Assembly: GCA_002632325.1 (NCBI GenBank)
Contig: NSJK01000007.1
Coordinates: 1 to 64,000, forward strand
Length of the DNA stretch: 64,000 bases
Direction: 5' to 3'
Source of the DNA: Lysobacterales bacterium
GTDB lineage: Bacteria > Pseudomonadota > Gammaproteobacteria > Xanthomonadales > Rhodanobacteraceae
Shown in pieces: positions 11,062 to 13,843 of the stretch (position 1 is its first letter; each line of letters begins with the position of its first letter). The notes beneath the pieces are model-generated. The model was not told where the DNA came from, searched no databases, and saw nothing but the letters and a program-made list of their open reading frames with translations. The translations under genes were made by a program, and so were the position numbers.

Positions 11062-12066
11062 TCAAGCGGCGTGAACCGCGCGCACCTTGGGCGTCTGCAG
11101 ATCGCGCCAATGCGGCGCCTGCGGCCATTCGCCATCGAAAGCATCGTGATCGAAGGCACGGCGCACGTCGCGCCGATCGATCTGGCCTGCGAACTGGGCG
11201 ATGAATTCGAGCGCGAAGTCACGCAGTACGCGATCACGACGCATCACGATCCAGGTGGTGCAAGTGGGGAACAGGCTGTCCGCGGGCAAGGCGCGCAGAT
11301 CACCGGCGTCCTCGGGCAGCAAGGCCATTTCGGCGAGGATGCCAACGCCCAGTCCGGCACGCACGTAGGTCTTGATGAGATCGGCATCGCGTGCGGTGAA
11401 AGCGAGCCGCGGCTGCAGCCCGGCTTCGAGGAAGGCACGGCGCAGCGAGGATTCGGGCTTGAGCGAGGATTCGTAGCTCACCAACGGATAGGCGGCGAGT
11501 TCCTCGAGCGTGGGCGCACGTTGCAGGTCAGCCAGCGGATGATTGCGCGGCACCAGCACGACACGCTCCCAGCGATAGGCAGGCAAGGCGAACCCCTTGA
11601 CCGGTGCGGTACCCGCGCTGCTGACCACGGCCAGATCGGTCTGGCCATGCTCGAGCACTTCGAGGATTTCGCTGTCATCGCCCGGCTGCAGGTGCACGCT
11701 CACGTGCGGATAGCGACGCTTGAGCGAGGCGATCGGCGTGGGCAGCGCAAAGCGTGCCTGAGTGTGGGTGGTGGCGATGCGCAGCTCGCCGTGATCCTCG
11801 TTGCGCAGATTGGCAGCCAGCGCACGGATGTTGGCGGCTTCGGCGAGGATCACGCGTGCGCGTGAAATCACCTGACGGCCGGCCGGGGTGATCGATTCGA
11901 GGCTCTTGCCCTTGCGCGCGAACAACTGGAAGCCGAGCTCGTCTTCGAGCTGCTTGAGCTGCTTGCTGATGCCGGGCTGGGTCGCGTGCACACGCTCGGC
12001 AGCGAGCGTGATGTTGAGGCCGGAATCGGCAATCGCGGCAAGGTAACGCAGTTGGGTCAAATTCAT
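11062..12066 (-). CDS. cysB: LysR-type regulator of sulfur assimilation, CysB
   Basis: 334 residues. The N-terminal winged helix (MNLTQLRYLAAIADSGLNIT ... HATQPGISKQLKQLEDELG, residues 1-60) is followed by a two-lobed inducer-binding domain. In enteric bacteria CysB activates cys genes in response to N- or O-acetylserine and sulfur limitation. ATG 12066 gives the family-standard MNLTQLRYL start; a frame opening 26 codons upstream is not supported. The start overlaps by ATGA the stop of a 32-codon Cys-containing ORF with its own ribosome site, suggesting translation of cysB is coupled to reading that leader. It is convergent with cysH and divergent from cysG, and a candidate promoter lies at 12208-12236. 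Confidence 0.95.
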   Translation of the reverse strand: MNLTQLRYLAAIADSGLNITLAAERVHATQPGISKQLKQLEDELGFQLFARKGKSLESITPAGRQVISRARVILAEAANIRALAANLRNEDHGELRIATTHTQARFALPTPIASLKRRYPHVSVHLQPGDDSEILEVLEHGQTDLAVVSSAGTAPVKGFALPAYRWERVVLVPRNHPLADLQRAPTLEELAAYPLVSYESSLKPESSLRRAFLEAGLQPRLAFTARDADLIKTYVRAGLGVGILAEMALLPEDAGDLRALPADSLFPTCTTWIVMRRDRVLRDFALEFIAQFAGQIDRRDVRRAFDHDAFDGEWPQAPHWRDLQTPKVRAVHAA

Positions 12067-12161
12067 GGTGATCGGCTCACAGGCGGTCGCAATCGGGAAG
12101 GCGTGATGAAGGCGTGCGTGGTGATGCAACACATGAGCTTGCATTTGTCGAAACGTTTCAT
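12063..12161 (-). CDS. Candidate cysteine-sensing leader peptide of cysB (32 aa)
   Basis: Encodes a 32-residue peptide beginning MKRFDKCKLMCC, with Cys codons at positions 7, 11 and 12, then Thr/Pro/Arg-rich sequence. A Shine-Dalgarno-like AGGGGA lies 5 nt upstream of the ATG, and the TGA overlaps the cysB ATG (ATGA). A promoter about 47 nt upstream would put the ORF first on the cysB message. Leader peptides enriched in the regulated amino acid are the established mark of attenuation (trp, his, leu operons), and Cys is otherwise rare in short ORFs. The sequence facts are direct; cysteine-dependent ribosome behaviour here is inference. No clear terminator/antiterminator pair was identified, so coupling at the ATGA junction is the simpler model. 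Confidence 0.6.
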   Translation of the reverse strand: MKRFDKCKLMCCITTHAFITPSRLRPPVSRSP

Positions 12162-12207
12162 CGCTTTCCCCTGGTTGATGCCGCGACCTGCGGCCATATT
12201 CCCGCGC

Positions 12208-12236
12208 AGCATATCGAACTTTTGTTTGGCCGTCTA
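12208..12236 (-). promoter_or_regulatory. Candidate cysB promoter
   Basis: On the minus strand TAGACG (12231-12236) and TATGCT (12208-12213) are separated by 17 bp, each matching four of six consensus positions. The -35 hexamer lies inside the 18-bp palindrome at 12227-12244, so a protein bound there would compete with RNA polymerase. Transcription would start near 12201, giving a ~40-nt leader before the 32-codon ORF. Confidence 0.4.
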
Positions 12237-12352: not shown

Positions 12353-13843
12353 ATGTCGCTGTTCCCGCTATTCGCCGACCTGCAGCAACGTCCCGTCCTC
12401 GTGGTCGGCGGCGGCATGGTGGCCGAGCGCAAGGTCGAGGCCCTGCTCAAGGCCGGCGCACAGGTCACGGTCGGTGCGCCGGAACTCGCAGCCGGCCTCG
12501 TCCGACTGCGGGATGCCGGCCGCATCACGCACCATGCGGAGCCGTATCGCGAGGCGTGGCTCGACGGCGTCTGGCTGGTCGTTGCCGCGACCAGCGATGT
12601 CGTGGTCAATCGTCTGGTCGCGGCCGCCGCCGCCGCGCGCCGCATCTTCGTCAACGTCGTCGATGATGCGCAGTTGTCGAGCTTCCATGTGCCGGCAGTG
12701 ATCGATCGCGCACCGTTGACGATCGCGATTTCCTCGGGCGGCGCGGCGCCGATGTTCGCGCGCTTGCTGCGCGAACGGCTCGAGGCCACGCTCGACCACG
12801 CACTCGGGCCGCTGGCCGCACTCGCCGCGCGCTTTCGCAAGCGCATTCGCGCACGACACGCCGCGCCGGCCGCAAGGCGCGCGTTCTACGAACGCCTGTT
12901 CAATGGCCCGGTTGCCGATCTGCTGCGTCGCCAGCAGCCGCTGCAGGCCGAGGCCGCGCTGGCCGCGAGCCTGCGCGAAACCGTCGCTCCCGTGCGCGGC
13001 TCGGTGGTGCTGGTGGGTGCCGGCCCGGGCGATCCCGGCCTGCTCACGCTCAAGGCATTGCGCGCGCTCAACGAGGCCGATGTGATCCTGCACGACCGAT
13101 TGGTCAGCTGCGAAATTCTCGAACTCGCGCGCCGCGATGCCATCCGCATCGAGGTCGGCAAGGAAGCCGGCCGCCATCACACCACGCAAGACGGCATCCA
13201 TGCGCTCATGCTCGAGCATGCACGCGCCGGCCAGCGCGTGGTGCGACTCAAGGGGGGTGATCCCTTCGTGTTCGGCCGCGGCGGCGAGGAGCTCGAATTC
13301 CTGCGCGATCACGACATCGCTTTCGAAGTGGTACCCGGAATCACCGCGGCCGTCGCCTGCGCCGCCTACGCCGGTGTGCCGCTCACCCATCGCGATCATG
13401 CGCAATCGCTGCGTCTGGTCACCGCACATTGCCAGTCCTCGCTCGACACGCTCGACTGGGTCGCACTCGCGCAGGAACGCCAGACACTCGCGGTCTACAT
13501 GGGCGTGGGCGAACTCGCAGCGTTGCGTGATCGCCTGCTCGAACACGGCCGCGCCGCCGGCACCCCGTTCGCCTTGATCGAAAACGGTTCGCGCGCGCAG
13601 CAGCGCGTGATCGTCGGCACGCTGGCGCAGCTTCCCGAGCAGGCGCATCGGCATGCCGTGCGCTCGCCAGCCTTGCTGATTCTCGGCGAGGTCGCTGCGC
13701 TGGCGACTCGCCTGCACTGGTTCGGCGCCGCCCCACTGGGCGTCGATCCGCACACGCCGTGCGATGCGCTGGCGAGTCTGCCGCTGCGCACGCAAGCCGC
13801 TGCCGATGAAGACCTCGGCCGAATGCGATGTCGGGCCGCCTGA
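12353..13843 (+). CDS. cysG: Trifunctional siroheme synthase
   Basis: 496 residues. The N-terminal CysG(B) module (about 1-200) is the NAD-dependent precorrin-2 dehydrogenase / sirohydrochlorin ferrochelatase, with the nucleotide loop [13 protein letters not shown] near residues 16-28. The C-terminal CysG(A) module (about 215-460) is uroporphyrinogen-III C-methyltransferase, with [33 protein letters not shown] and [22 protein letters not shown]. It makes siroheme for CysI. The ATG giving [10 protein letters not shown] was chosen because it matches the family start; an upstream in-frame GTG would add five residues. Divergent from cysB and upstream of cysK. Confidence 0.96.

Follow-up and report, generated by a model that had tools for sequence, protein, structure and literature searches.

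The window, that is, the whole stretch of 64,000 nucleotides that was analysed, contained on its minus strand a gene for a cysB-family LysR regulator of 334 amino acids (11062..12066), recognised by profile matches and gene context, with cysG (12353..13843, plus strand) as its divergent neighbour. The genes cysJ, cysI, cysH, cysG, and cysK surrounded the regulator gene. The best NCBIfam model of the regulator was PRK12680 with 451 bits (cut-off 482), and the NCBIfam CysB model gave 324 bits (cut-off 436); CysB is used here as a putative name, given by family and context. The regulator stood under both cut-offs and may belong to a distinct subgroup.

A leader ORF of 32 codons was located ahead of cysB on the same strand (12063..12161). 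Translation of the minus strand from 12161 to 12063 gave the peptide MKRFDKCKLMCCITTHAFITPSRLRPPVSRSP followed by a stop codon, and confirmed the original prediction of a 32-codon ORF with Cys codons, an AGGGGA ribosome site, and an ATGA overlap with cysB; the sister species (L002) and a codon-substitution test also supported the ORF. Cys codons were found at positions 7 (TGC), 11 (TGT), and 12 (TGC), of which the tandem TGT TGC of codons 11-12 (12126..12131, minus strand) is the part that recurred across genera. The Shine-Dalgarno AGGGGA (12167..12172, minus strand, read from 12172 to 12167) had a spacing of 5 nt to the leader ATG and a computed value of -6.5 kcal/mol, against -1.9 kcal/mol for cysB. 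At the other end, the leader TGA (12065-12063) shared bases with the cysB ATG (12066-12064), forming ATGA (12063..12066, minus strand). The window thus had the stop-start overlap and the weak downstream Shine-Dalgarno of coupled ORFs of the ATGA kind, and a good leader Shine-Dalgarno beside a weak one on cysB suits translational coupling. Over the set of relatives, the Shine-Dalgarno values were -4.5 for leaders and -2.3 for random starts, a comparison biased upward because the best-scoring of several starts was picked for each ORF, which favours a good Shine-Dalgarno. A Pfam and NCBIfam search of the leader peptide produced no match, and an Rfam scan produced a single chance-level match (E 0.52), far under its cut-off and outside the leader.

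The ATGA overlap is real, and the original prediction gave it more weight than it bears. The second CysB codon begins with A (the N-terminus was MT or MN in aligned relatives, so that the start reads ATGA), and for this reason any ORF in that frame closes automatically in the same way. The overlap is weak evidence, and it is the retention of frame, start, and Cys codons that needs testing. Cys-Cys in short frames was also common in the GC-rich window (dozens per 64 kb among mechanical frames), and only the comparison across relatives exceeds chance.

Of 298 named relatives, the best 80 were kept; among these, the nearest was Dokdonella sp. ACE_PRO70, with a CysB 92% identical, and the genus is called Dokdonella here after it. 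Sixteen same-genus genomes were compared, 12 of them had a cysB orthologue, and the leader was present in 6 of the 12 (G000, G002, G004, G011, G013, and G015), in all six with ATG-TGT-TGY at -68 and ATGA as the end. Lack of conservation in close relatives had been named beforehand as grounds for rejecting the leader, and this result did not refute it. Four same-genus genomes (G003, G005, G006, and G012) had no clear cysB orthologue, with best matches at E 1e-19 to 1e-27; their listed completeness was 99-100% for G005, G006, and G012 and 77% for G003. The leader of the sister species L002 shared 84% amino-acid identity with the window leader. A search with the 32-aa peptide through 233 family genomes gave a strong match in the sister species only, and peptide similarity was rejected as a conservation signal on this ground. 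In the CysB tree (FastTree), the six same-genus leaders grouped with a leader-bearing Rudaea MAG (L068) and with L017, which has no leader (local support 90); the pair was present in 7 of the 8 members of this Dokdonella/Rudaea group, and the remaining same-genus rows fell elsewhere.

A -10-like TATGCT box (12208..12213, minus strand), the presumed cysB promoter, began 21 nt past the start of GACGGCCAAA (12234), and the recurrent motif GACGGCCAAAC upstream of the box (12224..12234, minus strand) is a possible regulator site. For the promoter predicted at 12208-12236, a consensus promoter scan of the window region returned 0 sites; however, the two elements recurred with equal spacing in leader-bearing Dokdonella L005 and L006. 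A GACG[GT]CCAAA motif recurred in Rhodanobacteraceae cysB promoters about 20 nt upstream of the TATGCT box, in relatives often inside TAGACGTCCAAAT or a tandem GACGTC, possibly as a regulator site. The motif may resemble met boxes. The promoter motif was found in 5 of 6 Dokdonella regions with the leader, at -167 to -180, and in 4 of 6 without it, at -66 to -101, and these four leaderless regions look as if the entire leader segment were absent. Over all 69 motif-bearing regions, promoter-to-cysB distance did not distinguish those with the leader (P 0.53) and was rejected as a general criterion.

The wider comparison covered 170 distinct upstream cysB regions of Lysobacterales in 129 similarity clusters, with 80 loci named. 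Eighty further loci were taken in rank order among the matches listed (274 matching genomes), and a later search gave a match in 99 of 274 genomes, from which 27 loci were available and 40 more were taken. Thirty-two of 243 loci were dropped for want of a readable CysB start (27 unrelated matches and the 5 cysB loci L152, L195, L201, L204, and L229), and 41 of the 211 remaining were removed as duplicates. The pair was scored when TGYTGY stood at -95 to -45 in a frame opened by ATG or GTG.

Such a Cys-Cys frame was found in 37 of the 170 regions and 28 of the 129 clusters, against 3.3 for both in dinucleotide-preserving shuffles (SD 1.6, maximum 8, 100 shuffles), and the leader ORF was confirmed as recurrent in Lysobacterales. 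TGTTGT was present in 27 regions (0.8 in shuffles). The last 200 nt contained TGTTGT 31 times, each time in frame with an upstream start, and the shifted frames of the same copies were open in 4 and 24, so that openness discriminates only partly. Among the representatives of the clusters, the pair stood at -57 to -89 relative to cysB, a range of about 30 nt, and the frame closed by ATGA, which is that of the window, held 23 of the 28 representatives (P 1.5e-7 assuming cluster independence, which is not fully true). Frames led by a Shine-Dalgarno and ending at ATGA were found in 36 of the 129 representatives against 10 in shuffles, and those with Cys-Cys in 13 against 0.25.

The pair occurred in Dokdonella, Rudaea, Lysobacter, and Arenimonas. 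On the CysB tree, it was carried by 31 of 113 rows and needed 14 changes, against 27.3 with shuffled labels (rows L016 and L022 were assigned 'no' manually). It was kept in 9/9 rows of the Lysobacter antibioticus/enzymogenes clade, and in this clade (with L218) and the Dokdonella clade it varied in the second codon only, and there at the third base, among rows chosen for having the pair. Runs of 3 to 4 Cys were present in L025, L069, L098, L108, L111, and L197, and Arg often followed the pair (23/37). The five non-ATGA representatives (5/28) were L022, where the pair is probably due to chance, L025 and L241, where the leader ended 41 nt past the cysB start, and Arenimonas L095 (cluster mate L105) and L101. 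In Arenimonas the pair was in another frame relative to cysB, yet inside its own short ORF, e.g. MCCRPPEP before a stop; therefore, its frame follows the leader and not cysB. The pair was absent from 133 of the 170 regions, including the inspected Rhodanobacter, Stenotrophomonas, and Pseudoxanthomonas rows. The regulatory interpretation is partly supported: ORF, Cys pair, and ATGA frame recurred across two families, but patchily, in half of the same-genus genomes with a cysB orthologue.

Short TGTTGY frames were found in 25 rows when 664 long mechanical ORFs, from the named neighbourhoods and the window, were examined at their starts; 21 of these rows were the cysB leader and 4 were elsewhere. 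In eight genomes, such a frame preceded cysD in 0 of 8 loci and the sulfate-binding protein gene in 0 of 5 loci, and Cys-Cys frames at unrelated places were seen at 2 of 8 cysS loci and at the window's cysJ. The class-level set outside the order comprised 61 cysB regions (6 of 75 loci were unreadable, and 8 of the 69 read belonged to the order itself). Some Cys-Cys frame was present in 4 of these 61 regions, and TGTTGT in the last 200 nt in 0/61. Two of the 61 (L252 and L308) had the pair as defined above, near the shuffled rate, so the leader as a general trait of gammaproteobacterial cysB was not borne out. The frame of L252 also ended at ATGA, and single cases of Cys-Cys with ATGA can therefore arise by chance.

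The reading that we favour, with a probability of about 0.5, is that the cysB mRNA carries a translated leader coupled to cysB, whose Cys codons would make cysB translation depend on charged tRNA-Cys. After loading at the good leader Shine-Dalgarno and traversing the tandem Cys codons, ribosomes would terminate at the TGA within ATGA and begin again at the cysB ATG, whose own ribosome site is weak, and in this way the two translations would be coupled. Under a shortage of charged tRNA-Cys, ribosomes would pause on the Cys pair some 65 nt upstream, which would change both arrivals at the junction and CysB output. For the ATGA type, to which the window belongs, less reinitiation would be expected, and the leader would act as a brake; according to Korolev and colleagues, reinitiation becomes less frequent when ribosomes stall at regulatory codons (PMC4833913). 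It would be odd for a sulfur activator such as CysB to fall in amount when cysteine is low. In the window, coupling is the likely mode and cysteine sensing is plausible, and a cysteine effect could have either sign.

It is less probable, and on balance doubtful, that the leader is translated and sets or raises cysB translation by reinitiation, with the Cys pair as an incidental or slow-codon feature and no cysteine sensing. ATGA-ending leader ORFs were also present in relatives without Cys-Cys; in Dyella, Frateuria, and genus g27, the short ORF ending at ATGA persisted with mostly one or no Cys. The cysB Shine-Dalgarno was weak both with and without the pair, as simple reinitiation would have it, and reinitiation after short leaders is proposed as a general bacterial effect in the accessible text of PMC4833913. 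Against this, the pair is what recurs (37/170 against 3.3), and it is lengthened to 3 to 4 Cys in six loci.

The leader frame was also examined by a coding test, a column shuffle of amino-acid similarity per changed codon for each frame. The leader-frame P was 0.027 for L001/L002, 0.003 for Tahibacter (a leader of about 36 codons with a single Cys), 0.017 for Lysobacter A, 0.11 for Rudaea, 0.13 for Lysobacter B, and 0.30, 0.40, and 0.59 for the remaining three of eight groups. Combining the eight groups gave P 0.0006 for frame 0, as against 0.97 and 0.33 for the other two; the combined values exclude Arenimonas, with 2 changed codons, and a pooled Dokdonella row, whose frame 0 gave P 0.083. 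L003/L004 was contrary, with another frame scoring best (P 0.003).

Codon choice in the representatives was uneven. The pair preferred TGT (45 to 11), while other Cys codons in the same ORFs preferred TGC (29 to 10) and other pyrimidine-ending codons of these ORFs were C-ending by 358 to 135; a pure amino-acid reading does not predict the TGT preference. Rhodanobacter, Dyella, Frateuria, and genus g27 carried a GCGATGTAY element near -59 to -62 (e.g. leaders L008, L147, and L171), and none of the tested groups bearing it, which included the last three of these genera, had coding-type substitution. GATGT at -85 to -45 was present in 69 copies from 49 clusters, far above neighbouring stretches, with some copies inside Cys-Cys leaders; ATGA closed 49 of the 69 GATGT frames, some of which encode MYPC peptides. 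The frame of GATGT varied within one Rhodanobacter group (L070, L075-L079, L082, L161, and L165). Six Rhodanobacter-type loci (L075, L077, L078, L082, L161, and L165) had a conserved ATG at -63 in the cysB frame, which would extend CysB by 21 residues. The TGT preference, together with the frame and coding behaviour of GCGATGTAY, points to a constraint at the nucleotide level beside or instead of the codons.

On these grounds, TGTTGTCG and the GCGATGTAY at a similar place in other genera could be a nucleotide-level site for protein or RNA binding that by coincidence lies in frames left open in GC-rich DNA, an explanation that we consider quite unlikely. The strong TGT preference, the GATGT copies with their varying frames in one Rhodanobacter group, the related groups tested without a coding signal, and the frame two bases on, open in 24/31, all suit such a site. 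It does not account for the 31/31 copies in frame with a start or for a frame locked to cysB despite variable distance. Codons are also favoured by two clades in which only the third base varies and by the substitution signal that frame 0 gave for Tahibacter, a single Lysobacter group, and a single Dokdonella pair.

An N-terminal CysB extension that starts at a GTG, TTG, or ATG further upstream in the frame of cysB is highly improbable. That frame was open upstream in the window (a 360-aa ORF from 12144) and in many relatives; however, the frame-2 substitution test was null overall (combined P 0.33), the cysB frame of L101 has a TGA at -36 to -34, and the LysR helix-turn-helix match starts at residue 3 of the 334-aa form. 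Equally remote is a nascent Cys-rich peptide that senses metal or redox state like the Bordetella copper uORF CruR, since the adjacent Cys pair, the Arg after it in 23/37, and the RPP-like end in the window are offset by a window peptide without CXXC, RAPP, or Pfam match and by pair surroundings that are unlike between genera.

For the favoured reading of a coupled Cys-codon leader, classical hairpin attenuation was rejected as the mechanism. A terminator scan of the window region gave 0 terminator-like sites (1.4 in shuffles), the Cys codons were no more complementary than expected to the sequence downstream (mean z +0.11 for 28 representatives; window z 0.2), and the window leader folded no more strongly than shuffles (z 0.06). 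A start-opening switch was not detected in the window either (z -0.56), and these last two values lend no support there to the altered leader folding that had been proposed. Hiding of the leader Shine-Dalgarno by the 3' half of the leader, a candidate from the L001 and L002 folds, was rejected as well, with no trend (mean z -0.10) in 30 rows, L002 and L004 being included together with their cluster mates. When the cysB start was examined for opening by a ribosome on the Cys pair, the first run gave a mean z of 1.16, and the rank test with controls gave 0.41. Relief of a start-hiding fold by a ribosome so placed was predicted at P<0.05 for 8 of the 28 representatives, compared with 12 of 100 controls (Fisher 0.04), the window not being among them. 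Four of the five non-ATGA representatives (L025, L241, L095, and L101, not L022) were among the eight (Fisher 0.015; post hoc and exploratory). In this minority of relatives, which includes most of the non-ATGA ones, the predicted fold would mask the start of cysB, which a ribosome pausing on the pair would expose, giving more CysB. The leaders were C-rich and G-poor (0.435 vs 0.247), those without the pair were alike (0.395 vs 0.255), and Rho-type composition was rejected as a pair-specific feature.

A wider proposal, possible but on balance doubtful, is that across two families the CysB gene is read through a Cys-codon leader, which would add a charged-tRNA-Cys input on top of the small-molecule inducer. 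It would have two architectures, one stop-start coupled and one with a start-hiding fold, which may oppose each other in effect, and TGT may have been selected as the sensing codon. If this were true, the sulfur regulator, and not enzymes alone, would be synthesised under the control of tRNA-Cys charging, and Cys-codon leaders, known from Actinobacteria, would extend to gammaproteobacteria. The natural series of leaders with Cys-Cys kept, lost, or reframed would then separate codon sensing from simple reinitiation.

A literature search for a cysB or proteobacterial cysteine leader found none among the open-licence papers listed. This is no proof that the cysB Cys-codon leader is new; Cys-run leaders as such are already known in Actinobacteria. 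In classical trp/his-type attenuators, codons for the end-product amino acid stand in tandem within a leader ORF. The cysB leader likewise has tandem codons of the pathway amino acid in a leader ORF; it differs in that neither a terminator/antiterminator nor pairing of the regulatory codons was found here and in that the target is a regulator gene. Canestrari 2020 reportedly described leaderless polycysteine short ORFs in mycobacteria. In the portions available of two sources (PMC13236596 and PMC9031893), contiguous mycobacterial Cys codons are said to regulate downstream genes via cysteine-dependent elongation. The likeness lies in contiguous Cys codons in a short upstream ORF, but the mycobacterial ORFs are leaderless and cited in those portions for cysteine biosynthetic genes, whereas the present ORF has a Shine-Dalgarno and a putative leader of about 40 nt, and no downstream pairing of its Cys codons was found. 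CruR of Bordetella, in the available part of PMC9426467, is a copper uORF for a DUF2946 protein with CXXC and RAPP. It resembles the cysB leader as a Cys-bearing upstream ORF controlling the following genes after transcription begins, and differs in these three features, none of which is present in the window leader. In Actinobacteria, the accessible part of a 2005 paper describes Cys-run leader peptides before cys operons or cbs, without a conserved terminator hairpin (PMC1262725). The cysB leader shares with them a short ORF with contiguous Cys codons before a sulfur gene and the absence of a conserved terminator hairpin. In the same part of that paper, the actinobacterial runs are near the leader stop and before cys operons or cbs, whereas here the pair is early or in the middle of a leader that precedes cysB, a LysR regulator gene in place of a cysteine biosynthesis operon, and its stop overlaps the start of that gene.
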